Below are positions 3,881 to 9,780 of a DNA stretch of 64,000 nt, one piece after another. Each line of letters starts with the position of its first letter. The stretch's first letter is position 1. Source of the stretch: Candidatus Nyctobacter psychrophilus (GTDB taxonomy: Bacteria; Vulcanimicrobiota; Vulcanimicrobiia; Vulcanimicrobiales; Vulcanimicrobiaceae); the NCBI GenBank assembly GCA_014305025.1, contig JACRTY010000017.1, forward strand, positions 62,001 to 126,000, in the 5' to 3' direction. Made by a program: the position numbers and the translations under genes. The notes beneath the pieces were generated by a model, which made no database searches, had not been told where the DNA came from, and saw nothing but the letters and a program-made list of their open reading frames with translations.

Positions 3881-4549
3881 TCACGCTACGACAGCGTCCC
3901 CGGCCACCGCGAGCCCCAGCACACGCTGCGGGACGAAGGCGATGCCTAGTTCCAGGATGGCCGCGCCCAGCAAATAGCCCCCTAGAACGTCGGTCGGGTA
4001 GTGCGCTCCGAGCGCTAGACGCGACCAGCCGATTGCGCCGCTGAGCACGAGCAGCACTACTGCAATCAAAAATCGCCACGGCGCCGTGAGCGTGGAGCGC
4101 AACGACACGTACGCCCAAAAGCCGAAGAAGACGAGTGAATTCGTACAATGGCCGCTCGCGTACGAGTACGTCCTCTCGTGCGTGACGATCCAGTGCGCCG
4201 GCCGCGGTCGTCGGAACGCGTCCTTGAGCGCGTTGCTGCAGACCTCAGCGATGATGAGCAGGCCGATTGCCGTCAGGCAGCGTCCGAGCCAAATGCGGCG
4301 CACGAAACCGGCCACGAGGATGACCGCGCACGCACTGCCGTACGCCGGAAACCGTCCGAGCGATGTGAGGAACGCAGCCAGCGGAGTTGCCGACCCGACC
4401 AACGCTGCCGCTTGTCGATCGATCGCAGCAGGTGGATGCGGCGAAACCGCAAGGCCGAGCAATGCGTACACGACGAGCAAAACGGCTACGGTAAGTGACG
4501 CGGTGAGGCGAGATGCCAAGGTCAAACGCTCGTATGGGATGCCGACCAA
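3881..4549 (-). CDS. PAP2-family membrane phosphatase
   Basis: A membrane phosphatase of the PAP2 (phosphatidic acid phosphatase 2 / haloperoxidase) superfamily, 222 residues with several hydrophobic segments. All three phosphatase motifs are visible: KDAFRRPRP, YASGH, and SRLALGAHYPTD with the catalytic His. The likely substrate is a lipid or isoprenoid phosphate such as undecaprenyl pyrophosphate, but the family is broad. The longest frame begins with TTG at 4549, which lies inside the palindromic operator of the divergent gene at 4591. Later TTG codons are equally possible starts, and the two genes may share control. Confidence 0.8.
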   Translation of the reverse strand: MVGIPYERLTLASRLTASLTVAVLLVVYALLGLAVSPHPPAAIDRQAAALVGSATPLAAFLTSLGRFPAYGSACAVILVAGFVRRIWLGRCLTAIGLLIIAEVCSNALKDAFRRPRPAHWIVTHERTYSYASGHCTNSLVFFGFWAYVSLRSTLTAPWRFLIAVVLLVLSGAIGWSRLALGAHYPTDVLGGYLLGAAILELGIAFVPQRVLGLAVAGDAVVA

Positions 4550-4590
4550 GATTCTTGGTCACATGACCAAGAATCTGCTATACTAGGCGT
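4544..4590 (+). promoter_or_regulatory. Promoter and palindromic operator of the AbiE-like module
   Basis: An almost perfect palindrome GACCAAGATTCTTGGTC (4544-4560) is followed four bases later by a third half-site, GACCAAGA (4565-4572). A -35-like TTGGTC (4555-4560) lies inside the palindrome. It is separated by 18 bases from a -10 box TATACT (4579-4584). The A of the gene's ATG is seven bases past the -10 box, where transcription would begin, so the mRNA should be leaderless. A repressor on these half-sites would cover the -35 and the spacer, the usual geometry of toxin-antitoxin autoregulation. Confidence 0.65.
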
Positions 4591-4917
4591 ATGGATTTCG
4601 GGATATTCGGATCCCCCGTTCGCGACCGCATCCTCAAGCTGCTCGTACTGATCGAAGACTCGTACCCACGACAACTGGCGGAACGCCTTGACGAACGGCT
4701 GTACACCGTTCAACGGGCGGTCGACGCGCTGCAATCCGCTGGAATCGTCACCTCGCGGCTCGTGGGAACCATTCGGCGCGTCGAGCTAAACCCGACCTGG
4801 TATGCGGCGAGCGAGCTGCGGGTTCTGTTGCGGCGAATGGCACAAGCCGATCCGGGCCTCAGCGCCATTGCGGGCTCGATCCGAAGGCGGCCGCGGCGCG
4901 CGCGTAAGGCGCTTTGA
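4591..4917 (+). CDS. Winged-helix regulator / putative AbiEi-like antitoxin
   Basis: A 108-residue protein with a winged-helix fold through about residue 75: 'SPVRDRILKLLVLIEDSYPR', then 'LAERLDERLYTVQRAVDAL' as the recognition helix and a two-strand wing ending 'RRVELNP'. The C-terminus is strongly basic (RRRPRRARKAL). Its stop overlaps the start of the nucleotidyltransferase-like gene as TGATG. Together with the palindromic operator, this suggests an autorepressing antitoxin like AbiEi. It is shorter than typical AbiEi, so it could instead be a plain MarR/ArsR-type regulator. Confidence 0.6.
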   Translation: MDFGIFGSPVRDRILKLLVLIEDSYPRQLAERLDERLYTVQRAVDALQSAGIVTSRLVGTIRRVELNPTWYAASELRVLLRRMAQADPGLSAIAGSIRRRPRRARKAL

Positions 4918-5480
4918 TGCTCGAGAAAGACGCTACGCTAATCGATGTGGCCTTTGCCGTCTGTACCGTGCTCGATGCCGCGGGGAAATGCGCCGTGCTT
5001 ACCGGCGGAAGCGCTGCGACATACTATGCACCCGCCGCCTACCAATCGCTCGACGCCGACTTCATACTGCAATTCGGCGTTACTCGAAAGGTCGTTGATC
5101 CGGCGCTCGCCGCCATCGGCTACCATCGCACGCCGTACGGCATGTACGCCCACGAGGCCATTCCGTTCACCGTCGAATTTCCGGCTGGCCCTTTGCGGAT
5201 CGGTCGCGACGTCGTTACGGAATGGCGGACTGATCATCGTAATGATCAACTGCTCCACGTTCTCACTCCTACCGACAGCGCGCGAGACCGCTTTATCGCC
5301 TACTATGCATGGTCTGATTATTCAGCGCTCCTAGCAGCGGTCGCAGTCGCACGAACCCAGGCAAAAGACTTTGATCGAAAACGATTCGAGCACTGGGCTC
5401 GCGCAGAGGCGCGTGCCGATTCAGCGTACGATCCGGCGCGGCTCGACACGTTCTTCGCACTGCTGGCGCACAGGGACTGA
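4917..5480 (+). CDS. Nucleotidyltransferase-fold protein / putative AbiEii-like toxin
   Basis: A 187-residue protein. Near residue 30 it has the nucleotidyltransferase signature: 'LTGGSAATYYAP', then 'SLDADF'. This is the GS...DxD arrangement seen in AbiEii/MenT-type toxins and in related uncharacterised nucleotidyltransferases. The rest shows no second domain. I prefer the ATG at 4917, overlapping the TGA of the regulator by one base; a TTG one codon upstream is also open. AbiEii-type toxins transfer nucleotides to RNA targets, but the substrate here is unknown. The next gene, ftsK, converges five bases away. Confidence 0.6.
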   Translation: MLEKDATLIDVAFAVCTVLDAAGKCAVLTGGSAATYYAPAAYQSLDADFILQFGVTRKVVDPALAAIGYHRTPYGMYAHEAIPFTVEFPAGPLRIGRDVVTEWRTDHRNDQLLHVLTPTDSARDRFIAYYAWSDYSALLAAVAVARTQAKDFDRKRFEHWARAEARADSAYDPARLDTFFALLAHRD

Positions 5481-5485
5481 ATCGT

Positions 5486-7930
5486 TTAGGCGCCCTGAGC
5501 GAACAGATCCGTTTGTTCGGATTTGCCGAGGCGGTCGGCGATCGTTTCCAGTTCACCGAGGCCGATGTTGATGCGGCGGGGCTTCGTGCCTTCGTGCGGG
5601 CCGACGATGCCGAACTCTTCGAGTTGCTTCATGACGCGCACGGCGCGCGGGTGGCCGATCGAGAGGCGCTGCTGTAACTGTGCGGTCGAAGCGAAATCAC
5701 TCTCGATGATGAAACGCGCGGCTTCGTAGCAGAGCGGGTCCACGTCGCGCTTGCGGTCGTCGTCCTCGATCGGGACGACCTCGACATCGAGAAGATTCTG
5801 GGGACGGGCCTGCGTCGCCCAGAATTCGACGAGCCGGGTGACCTCGTTGCCGGTGATCAGCGCGCCCTGCGAGCGAATCGGCTTGGGCGCATCGATCGGC
5901 AGAAACAGCATGTCGCCGCGCCCGAGCAGCCGTTCGGCGCCGGCCATGTCGATGATCGTGCGGGAGTCGACCTGCGAGCTGACCGCAAACGCGATGCGCG
6001 ACGGAATGTTCGCCTTGATGATGCCGGTGATGACGTCGACCGATGGTCGCTGGGTCGCGACGACGAGATGGATGCCGGTGGCGCGGGCCAGTTGCGCGAG
6101 CCGGCAGATCGTCGTCTCGACCTTCGCCGGCGCAATGAGCATCAGGTCGGCCAGCTCGTCGATGACGATGACGACGTACGGCAACGTCTCCGCGGGGAAC
6201 TTCGCGTTGTACTCCTCGATCTTTCGCACGCCCGCTTTGGCGAAGCGTTCGTAGCGTCCATCCATCTCCTTGGTCATCTCGAAGAGCGCGCCGGCCGCGA
6301 GCCGCGCGTCGGTGATCACGTCTTTGATCAAGTGCGGGATGCCGTTGTAGACGGTCAACTCGACGCGCTTGGGATCGATGAAGAGCATTTGAACTTGGTC
6401 GGGCGTGGCTGAGACGAGCAACGAGGCAATGATCGTGTTGAGGCAGACGCTCTTGCCGCTGCCGGTCGCGCCGGCGACGAGCAGGTGCGGCATCTTGCCG
6501 AGATCGCCGAAGACGGGACGACCGGTGATGTCTTTGCCCAGCGCCATGTGCAGCGGCGGAACCGTTCCGCGTTGCGGTAGCGCGTCGAGAATTTCACGGA
6601 TCGAAACGATTGAGGTTTGCGCGTTGGGAACTTCGATGCCGACGGCCGATTTGCCGGGGATCGGCGCTTCGATGCGCACCGACGTTGCGGCCAGGGCCAA
6701 CGCGATGTCGTCGGCCAGCGCGGAGATGCGCGAGATTTTGACGCCGCGTTCGGGCCGCAGTTCGTAGCGTGTGATCGACGGCCCGCGCTGGACGTGCGTA
6801 ACTTTGGCGCCGACGCCGAACGACGCCAGCGTATCCTCCAGCAGATGCGAGCGCTGCGATTCGTCGACGATCTGGGCTTGCGGCGGGTCGAATAGGTCGA
6901 GGTTCGGCAGCGAGTACGTGCGTTTCGCCGTCCCGTCGGCGGCGATGCCGGCAGGTTCATATTCGCCGACGACGATGCCGCCGTTTTCCTCATCATCGTC
7001 GTCGTCGTCGAGGCCCTCGTCGCCGCGCTCGTCGCCCTCCTCATCTTCGTCCTGGTCGGCGTCGTCTTCGTCGTCTTCGTCGTCTTCGTCGTCGAAGTCG
7101 TCATCATCGAGATCATCACCGTCGAGTTCGTCGTCCGTCGCATCGTCGAGTTCGTCTTCGTCCTCTTCTTCATCATCGAGGTCGTCTTCGGCACGGGCGG
7201 TCTCTTCGGTAATGAACGTTTTCGCGTCGACCGGCGCCAACGTCGCCAGGCTGGTCCCGGCGGCGACGGGGGCCGCCGCAGTCGCGGCTCCGTCACGCGC
7301 CGGCGACGTTGCCGACGGACGGGCCGGCAGGTGGAACGCCTCGCGGAGCGAGACCGGCCGAAGCGGCTGCGCAGCGCCCTTCGATGCGGCTCGCGCAACG
7401 GAAGCCGAGGCGCGCGAGGACGCGGCGGCGCCGGCCACCCAGGCCCGCAGTCGCGAGGCGCCGACGATCAACGCCCCGATCGCGCGTTTGACCTCGAGGT
7501 TTCCGATCCACACCGTCAGCGCGAGCGCCAGCAGCGCGAGAACGAGCACGGCGCCCGCCGGGCCCACGTATGCTTCGAGCCCGGTTCGGAGCAGGCGCCC
7601 GAACGCGCCGCCCGCGCGGCCGACGAACGCGTCGATCAGCAGAAAGTACGACAGCGACGCGAAACCGAGCGTCGCGATCATGCGCGGCACGTTGATCTCG
7701 AGAAACACGATGCCGCCGAAGATCGCGACGAGCACGGGAGCCAGCCCCGCGACCCGGCCGAACGCGGCGCCGAGACCGTGCGCCGCGGCCCCTCCTAGTG
7801 CGCCGGAATGAGTCGGCGCGACCAGTGCGACGCCGAGCAGCATTGCTAGTCCCAGTGCCGCCATCCCGATGATTTCGAGGTTGAACCGCAGGCGCATCGC
7901 CGCTGCCGATTTGCGCCGCACGCGAGCCAT
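5486..7930 (-). CDS. ftsK: DNA translocase FtsK/SpoIIIE
   Basis: A membrane-anchored hexameric ATPase that pumps chromosomal DNA at the division septum. The 814-residue protein has about four N-terminal membrane segments (residues 20-40, 60-80, 82-102, 122-142). A linker follows, with an intensely acidic run at 248-315 made almost entirely of Asp and Glu. The motor has Walker A GATGSGKS near residue 485 and a Walker B-type 'VVIVIDELADLM'. The C-terminal winged-helix gamma domain reads 'AQLQQRLSIGHPRAVRVMKQ' and would bind KOPS/SRS-type sites. The acidic linker is longer and purer than I would expect. The ATG at 7930 faces the dehydrogenase gene across 94 bases. Confidence 0.93.
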   Translation of the reverse strand: MARVRRKSAAAMRLRFNLEIIGMAALGLAMLLGVALVAPTHSGALGGAAAHGLGAAFGRVAGLAPVLVAIFGGIVFLEINVPRMIATLGFASLSYFLLIDAFVGRAGGAFGRLLRTGLEAYVGPAGAVLVLALLALALTVWIGNLEVKRAIGALIVGASRLRAWVAGAAASSRASASVARAASKGAAQPLRPVSLREAFHLPARPSATSPARDGAATAAAPVAAGTSLATLAPVDAKTFITEETARAEDDLDDEEEDEDELDDATDDELDGDDLDDDDFDDEDDEDDEDDADQDEDEEGDERGDEGLDDDDDDEENGGIVVGEYEPAGIAADGTAKRTYSLPNLDLFDPPQAQIVDESQRSHLLEDTLASFGVGAKVTHVQRGPSITRYELRPERGVKISRISALADDIALALAATSVRIEAPIPGKSAVGIEVPNAQTSIVSIREILDALPQRGTVPPLHMALGKDITGRPVFGDLGKMPHLLVAGATGSGKSVCLNTIIASLLVSATPDQVQMLFIDPKRVELTVYNGIPHLIKDVITDARLAAGALFEMTKEMDGRYERFAKAGVRKIEEYNAKFPAETLPYVVIVIDELADLMLIAPAKVETTICRLAQLARATGIHLVVATQRPSVDVITGIIKANIPSRIAFAVSSQVDSRTIIDMAGAERLLGRGDMLFLPIDAPKPIRSQGALITGNEVTRLVEFWATQARPQNLLDVEVVPIEDDDRKRDVDPLCYEAARFIIESDFASTAQLQQRLSIGHPRAVRVMKQLEEFGIVGPHEGTKPRRINIGLGELETIADRLGKSEQTDLFAQGA

Positions 7931-9101: not shown

Positions 9102-9479
9102 TCACCCGGCGAGTTGGCGGAGGCGTAAGGCGCCGATGGGTCCATTTGCTTGGGAGATGACGATCTCGATGTCGCAGCCGAGATTGCGCAGCGCTGCGAA
9201 AAGCCGTTCAGTCGAAAACCCAGATCCACGTCCATTTGCGATGCGCGAGAGATCAGGCTGTGCGAGCCCGACGAGTTTGCCGGCCACCGCTTGTGTCAAC
9301 TTCCGCCGTTTGATCTCCGAGTTGATAGCGTGCATGATGTGCGCTTTGAGCAGCAACTCATCGGCGTCGGGTAACCCCATGTCGGCGAAGACATTACCGC
9401 TGCCGGCTTCGAAAGTGACGCCGTTAACGATCCGTCTGCCGCTCGTAGTCTTGGCGCGCTTCGCGGAGGCGTTGAGCAA
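9102..9479 (-). CDS. HigA-type XRE antitoxin
   Basis: A helix-turn-helix protein with 'LTQAVAGKLVGLAQPDLSRI' as its XRE core and the N-terminal 'VTFEAGSGNVFADMGLPDA' typical of antitoxins partnered with HigB/RelE toxins. It lies directly downstream of the toxin, the usual order for HigBA. No ATG or GTG precedes the conserved N-terminus. I chose the TTG at 9479, which overlaps the toxin 3' end by 56 bases. An ATG at 9380 would delete the conserved N-terminus. Its stop is three bases from the convergent dehydrogenase stop. Confidence 0.75.
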   Translation of the reverse strand: MLNASAKRAKTTSGRRIVNGVTFEAGSGNVFADMGLPDADELLLKAHIMHAINSEIKRRKLTQAVAGKLVGLAQPDLSRIANGRGSGFSTERLFAALRNLGCDIEIVISQANGPIGALRLRQLAG

Positions 9480-9780
9480 TGAGATCGAGTTCGGCTCTCG
9501 GAGTCGCGATACCGTGCCGCGACTTTTTCTGGAACGCGTGGAGGACATAAACGACCTCTCCGATCTGGACCGTGTAGACGAGCCGATAGGTACCGCTTCG
9601 ATCGTTTTCGCTGATCTCGAGTACACCGCGCAGCGAACCATGAAGGGGCTTGCGTTCTGGGATGTCTCGCCGATCTGCGCGAGGTACAGTTGCGAAGCCA
9701 AGTTCTCGCTGCACAGCTTGAGGGAAAGCCCGAAGGTTGGTGCGGGCTGAGGACACCCACTCTACCGGCTTAAGCGCCAT
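9424..9780 (-). CDS. HigB/RelE-type toxin (Gp49-like family)
   Basis: A 118-residue RelE-superfamily protein. 'MALKPVEWVSSARTNLRAFP' leads into 'GTYRLVYTVQIGEVVYVLHA' and then 'FQKKSRHGIATP', the pattern of phage-Gp49-like mRNA interferases that cleave ribosome-bound mRNA. It is encoded upstream of the HigA-type antitoxin and probably read from the promoter at 9795-9823. The module lies between the dehydrogenase 3' end and a decayed EamA copy, which suggests insertion after the duplication described under findings. Confidence 0.8.
   Translation of the reverse strand: MALKPVEWVSSARTNLRAFPQAVQRELGFATVPRADRRDIPERKPLHGSLRGVLEISENDRSGTYRLVYTVQIGEVVYVLHAFQKKSRHGIATPRAELDLIAQRLREARQDYERQTDR

Follow-up and report, generated by a model that had tools for sequence, protein, structure and literature searches.

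A winged-helix and nucleotidyltransferase gene pair as a candidate toxin-antitoxin-type module

Nucleotidyltransferases (NTases) of conflict systems occur in two main arrangements, namely as DUF1814 toxins (AbiE, MenAT) and as MNT antitoxins with HEPN toxins. A winged-helix (wHTH) gene and an NTase gene near the start of the window, i.e., of the whole 64-kb stretch of DNA that was analysed, raise the question whether they belong to AbiE, with which the original prediction matched them, or to another kind of system. The match holds for a predicted autoregulated wHTH-NTase pair with toxin-antitoxin logic, but not for kinship with AbiE, since membership was rejected on profile comparison and motifs. 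Judged from sequence, the pair is likely a compact, horizontally mobile toxin-antitoxin-type module of a wHTH autorepressor-antitoxin and an NTase toxin. The best reading is a putative NTase-toxin/wHTH-antitoxin family distinct from AbiE and undescribed.

Gene pair, operator and recognition helix

The two genes and their control region are arranged as follows:

4544..4560, both strands: palindromic operator GACCAAGA-T-TCTTGGTC, a perfect 17-bp dyad with half-sites 4544-4551 (+) and 4553-4560 (-)
4565..4576, plus strand: third half-site GACCAAGAATCT, pairing with 4549-4561 as a perfect 13-2-13 inverted repeat
4556..4584, plus strand: predicted promoter, -35 box TGGTCA (4556-4561), 17-bp spacer and TG-extended -10 box TATACT (4579-4584)
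4591..4917, plus strand: wHTH gene, 108 aa, ArsR/MarR-like winged helix, putative autorepressor and antitoxin
4696..4716, plus strand: recognition-helix segment RLYTVQR, residues 36-42 (helix of the model, 37-50)
4917..5480, plus strand: NTase gene, 187 aa, Pol-beta fold of the DUF2204/DUF6036 type, putative toxin

According to the open reading frames of the window, the wHTH gene starts with ATG at 4591 and stops with TGA at 4915-4917, and the NTase gene starts with ATG at 4917 and stops with TGA at 5478-5480. The overlap of stop and start as TGATG, which had been read from the sequence before, is confirmed at these positions.

Three GACCAAGA half-sites are located at 4544-4551 (+), 4553-4560 (-), and 4565-4572 (+). 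With up to one mismatch, the 12-mer GACCAAGAWTCT occurs three times in 64 kb, always at the operator (0.18 expected), and this triple occurrence was matched in none of 100 shuffles and is thus not due to chance. Shuffles and promoter scan thereby bear out the earlier statement that three half-sites lie over the promoter. A second perfect dyad, AGATTCTTGGTCA-CA-TGACCAAGAATCT, comprises 28 bp (4549-4576) with 13-bp arms and overlaps the 17-bp dyad. Due to the extent of this dyad, the operator ends at 4576 and not at 4572; the previously given span of 4544-4572 is correct for the half-sites, but not for the end. Elsewhere in the 3.2-Mb genome the palindrome does not recur; the runners-up carry three mismatches, equal to the reversed control. 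The sole sigma-70-like promoter of the region is situated under the operator, which covers the -35 box and the spacer. Only 6 nt separate the -10 box TATACT from the ATG of the wHTH gene, which makes a leaderless mRNA probable. Among the 45 relatives with a -10-like box, this spacing is more frequent than any other (18 cases).

Residue, tail, operator, and covariation counts refer to a set of 65 modules. For 30 of these a significant upstream inverted repeat was found (p<=0.05; approximately 3 expected), and some of these repeats are palindromes whose 14-18-bp arms span the promoter. In case of Pyxidicoccus fallax (L038, 5549-5660), about six copies of an CCAAGAnnnTTGG operator precede the wHTH gene in steps of 21-22 bp.

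The operator words vary among the 65 modules and track the recognition helix. Every module whose helix reads R[LP][YF]TVQ carries CCAAGA (7 modules, namely that of the window and six of the Myxococcota), versus 2 of the 58 others; this association stems from two lineages only and gives p=0.003 when these are collapsed. Helix identity is correlated with the operator in a partial Mantel test controlled for the remainder of the wHTH protein and for the NTase (p=0.001); the size of the effect is small (r=0.10). The common CCAAGA operator suggested a myxococcal origin of the window copy, which was ruled out by the NTase tree. In this tree, the window NTase falls among its own bacterial family and outside the Myxococcota. 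The CCAAGA match thus joins separate lineages, and the common operator is convergent or ancient. Operator anatomy and covariation support the prediction of autoregulation by the wHTH protein: it would bind the GACCAAGA operators via its winged helix and repress the promoter beneath. Since helix and operator covary, the modules offer a naturally varied set from which winged-helix specificity could be decoded.

Relation of both proteins to AbiE and other known systems

Neither protein reaches the curated cut-off of any Pfam or NCBIfam family, and a PADLOC search with the window NTase gave no match. AlphaFold2 models of both proteins, a structure prediction that had been proposed as a check, confirmed the two folds, winged helix and NTase. 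Among the fold neighbours of the NTase model (pLDDT 95.5) are MenT1, ANT(2'')-Ia, H. pylori JHP933, and LnuA. In profile-profile comparison (hhalign), the NTase aligns at full length, over approximately 140 residues, with DUF2204/DUF6036 (PF09970, PF19502; probability 96-97%, E about 1e-8 to 1e-10), although it remains below the cut-offs of these families. With DUF1814/AbiEii, only a 31-residue core is aligned (probability 12-33%). The conserved residues of the NTase are:

5004..5060, plus strand: catalytic motif GGS(30-32)...S44-x-D46-x-D48, from conservation across 65 modules
5175..5177, plus strand: E87, likely third carboxylate, E/D in 59 of 65 modules and Ala in 6
5289..5318, plus strand: R125, where AbiEii has its motif-III Lys, and D134, the first Asp in an element resembling motif IV

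G31, S44, D48, and R125 are invariant in the 65 modules, and D46 and D124 are present in 64 and D134 in 63 of them.

Like AbiE (COG5340-DUF1814), the module is a two-gene operon with the wHTH regulator first, a Pol-beta NTase second, and inverted repeats over the promoter. AbiEii is characterised by motifs I/II of the form hG[G/S]x9-15DhD, in which motif II contains an Arg, by motif III (KLxAaxxR), and by motif IV (+DxxD), and AbiEi by an N-terminal wHTH and a COG5340 C-terminal antitoxin domain (PMC3985639). In the module the GG...DxD signature is kept, whereas a conserved Arg is missing from motif II and Y42 and S44 are invariant instead; the motif-III Lys is replaced by the invariant R125 and the second motif-IV Asp by Ala, Ser, or Gly. 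The regulator contains a single ArsR/MarR-like wHTH, two helices, and a tail, but no COG5340 C-terminal domain; the original prediction of about half the usual AbiEi size with a basic tail proved correct (108 aa, tail conserved). AbiEi Pfam models are not among the listed matches of 23 wHTH members. Genuine membership in AbiE (COG5340/DUF1814, type IV), in shortened form, would explain the gene order, the promoter repeats, and the match of 1 out of 21 NTase members to the PADLOC AbiEii model, a weak one (E=1.7e-4). Due to the missing motif residues, the full-length match to DUF2204/DUF6036, the lack of any AbiEi model among the listed matches of the wHTH protein, and a search of the window genome with PF08843 (DUF1814) that gave no match, we consider this reading very improbable.

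Like the module with its putative antitoxin, MenAT1 of M. tuberculosis has a small antitoxin beside a short NTase, and MenT1 ranks high among the fold matches. By analogy only, S44 corresponds to T39 of MenT1, as in both proteins a Ser/Thr precedes the first catalytic Asp by two residues; T39 is the MenT1 phosphoacceptor (PMC11375011). Unlike the predicted wHTH autorepressor with its basic tail, MenA1 is without a DNA-binding domain and MenAT1 is not autoregulated (PMC10435456, PMC11375011).

A HEPN gene was not found next to the module, whose neighbours are PAP2 and ftsK without a conserved third gene in relatives, and HEPN-MNT membership was therefore ruled out. Moreover, the NTase here would be the toxin and not, as in HEPN-MNT, the antitoxin. 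The candidate system PDC-M05 (PMC12988326) also involves an NTase, and the wHTH protein resembles the N-terminal part of PDC-M05A in 21 of 23 members, but the module has no HEPN gene and its wHTH and NTase are separate proteins.

The fold matches also bear on the main rival reading, a drug- or metabolite-modifying NTase like ANT(2'')-Ia or LnuA with a compound-sensing wHTH repressor. Both enzymes are among the best fold matches and share fold, size, and the DxD catalytic centre with the NTase, at a sequence identity of about 9-14%. On the regulator side, the model of the wHTH protein (pLDDT 89.0) consists of the winged helix, two C-terminal helices, and a tail of low confidence (~58); structure search with the model yielded CzrA, SqrR, and MarR proteins, and its profile matches MarR/ArsR-type families. 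ArsR/MarR-like wHTH proteins are often ligand-sensing repressors. Neither ANT(2'')-Ia nor LnuA is known to be linked to a tailed wHTH partner.

Basic tail, pairing and gene decay

The element that sets the regulator apart is its C-terminus:

4882..4914, plus strand: basic tail RRRPRRARKAL, residues 98-108, more conserved than any other part of the wHTH protein

The motif R-x-RPRR-x-x-K is kept in 64 of the 65 modules. Median pI values are 11.0 for the wHTH protein and 5.3 for the NTase. In 149 genomes of the phylum, the tail is encoded by 60 wHTH genes, of which 48 are followed by a full NTase gene (gap 0-58 nt) and 7 by a partial one; for the remaining 5, none was detected at full-profile level, but 3 of these keep remnants. 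None of the 11 tail-less or truncated homologues, which often consist of several winged helices in tandem, precedes an NTase gene (Fisher p=5e-7 for co-occurrence; 2e-9 with partial NTases counted). The tail thus was found only in NTase-paired homologues or in copies with NTase decay, and because tail-less homologues never precede an NTase gene, it is tied to the NTase and not to DNA binding. Two side observations concern this distribution. The tail-less relatives L118-L123 and L126 are tandem poly-winged-helix proteins without an NTase, and at one locus of the Armatimonadota (L055, 1777-2629) two successive wHTH genes occur, of which only the NTase-adjacent one encodes the RPRR tail.

Except for one genome, the wHTH gene is located directly upstream in all 23 of 60 relatives with an NTase match. 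The same order was observed in 32 of 32 named loci, mostly of the Vulcanimicrobiota (Eremiobacterota), Myxococcota, Armatimonadota, and Latescibacterota. The distant plasmid copies that were analysed, from Sulfurospirillum, Bdellovibrio, Sulfurimonas, and Leptospira, are paired as well, although the wHTH protein of L092 matches only in part. NTase orthologues unlinked to the regulator, which had been named as a finding that would speak against the proposal, were looked for, and linkage was nearly complete. In the only near NTase without an upstream wHTH gene (G009), the catalytic DxD motif is gone. Decay thus affects mainly one partner: beside a damaged or missing NTase gene, the wHTH gene is intact in 12 cases (p=0.004 for gene length alone), and damage to both genes was seen in G107, at a contig edge. 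Since most genomes are MAGs, some of the broken genes may be assembly errors.

The invariant Arg/Pro-rich tail is the likely neutralising element; it would hold the NTase in an inactive state, and the acidic surface of this enzyme is where it would probably dock. In case of loss or titration of the wHTH protein, the NTase would, by analogy, transfer nucleotides to a cellular target and growth would stop; the most plausible target would be tRNA 3' ends, as with MenT toxins. The invariance of the tail suggests direct binding (type II) rather than type IV; alternatively, the tail could bind DNA or RNA.

With a compound-sensing repressor, an invariant regulator tail accompanying the NTase would be unexpected, as would several divergent module copies per genome and regulators that outlast a broken enzyme, the opposite of a dispensable repressor. 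We therefore presume the drug- or metabolite-modifying NTase to be an unlikely explanation. Slightly less probable still is a non-toxic regulatory pair, in which the NTase would modify the wHTH protein or another regulator and so tune transcription. The 1:1 pairing, the overlapping genes, and an operator unique to its own promoter are in agreement with such a pair. Conversely, no Ser, Thr, or Tyr in the conserved tail is invariant and could serve as acceptor, and housekeeping control would not usually go with a scattered distribution, copies on plasmids, and insertion as a cassette.

The toxin-antitoxin reading can be extended to a new family in at least seven phyla, with a DUF2204/DUF6036-type NTase as toxin and the 11-residue R-x-RPRR-x-x-K tail as the entire neutralising element on a bare winged-helix repressor. 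In this full form we put it forward tentatively, giving it a little less than an even chance. As a toxin-antitoxin-type module, the pair would represent a third NTase lineage in conflict systems and give one branch of DUF2204/DUF6036 a function, and a tail that neutralises the NTase would be a very small antitoxin element. In line with the original prediction, which had called the module undescribed, no description was found in Pfam, NCBIfam, PADLOC, and the open-access literature searched; the latter yielded neither a paper on the wHTH-NTase pair nor a functional paper on DUF2204/DUF6036, and either family is mentioned in a single paper on an unrelated subject. As the family is not a named system in these three resources, current defence and toxin-antitoxin annotation misses it.

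Distribution and genomic setting

The cassette is present in at least seven bacterial phyla, including plasmid relatives in the Campylobacterota, Bdellovibrio, and Leptospira. Its presence is patchy (52 of 149 genomes of the phylum). A conserved small bicistronic pair that is mobile, patchy, and also found on plasmids agrees with the general traits of toxin-antitoxin systems. A phage origin was rejected, as searches of phage records and IMG/VR gave no match to the module and viral structures gave none at E<=0.001. Likewise, a defence-island context was ruled out: the 76 neighbour proteins at 15 named loci are varied, and their matches were for the most part of the Ser/Thr kinase type in PADLOC, in addition to assorted housekeeping families. 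Distant NTases from other families of the phylum (L158-L161) are preceded by a different short partner, ending like IKNPFERLIKFMS, which suggests a separate candidate two-gene module.

The flanking genes in the window are:

3881..4549, minus strand: PAP2 phosphatase; its open frame begins inside the operator and its start is uncertain
5486..7930, minus strand: ftsK/spoIIIE, convergent, with its stop 5 nt past the NTase stop

In about 17 relatives, PAP2 follows directly after ftsK, usually with mqn next, all in one direction and without an insert. The window cassette is situated between ftsK and PAP2 in opposite orientation and is thus inserted at a junction that these relatives keep intact. 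Other genes occur at the ftsK junction as well: in L176 (G019), a HicA-HicB pair stands after the same ftsK as the window module, with no PAP2 detected at this locus, and different genes were found at this position in L173 and L194. In the window itself, a HigB-like toxin gene (Gp49, PF05973) and an HTH_37 antitoxin gene are located at 9102-9780 on the minus strand, 3.6 kb from the module.
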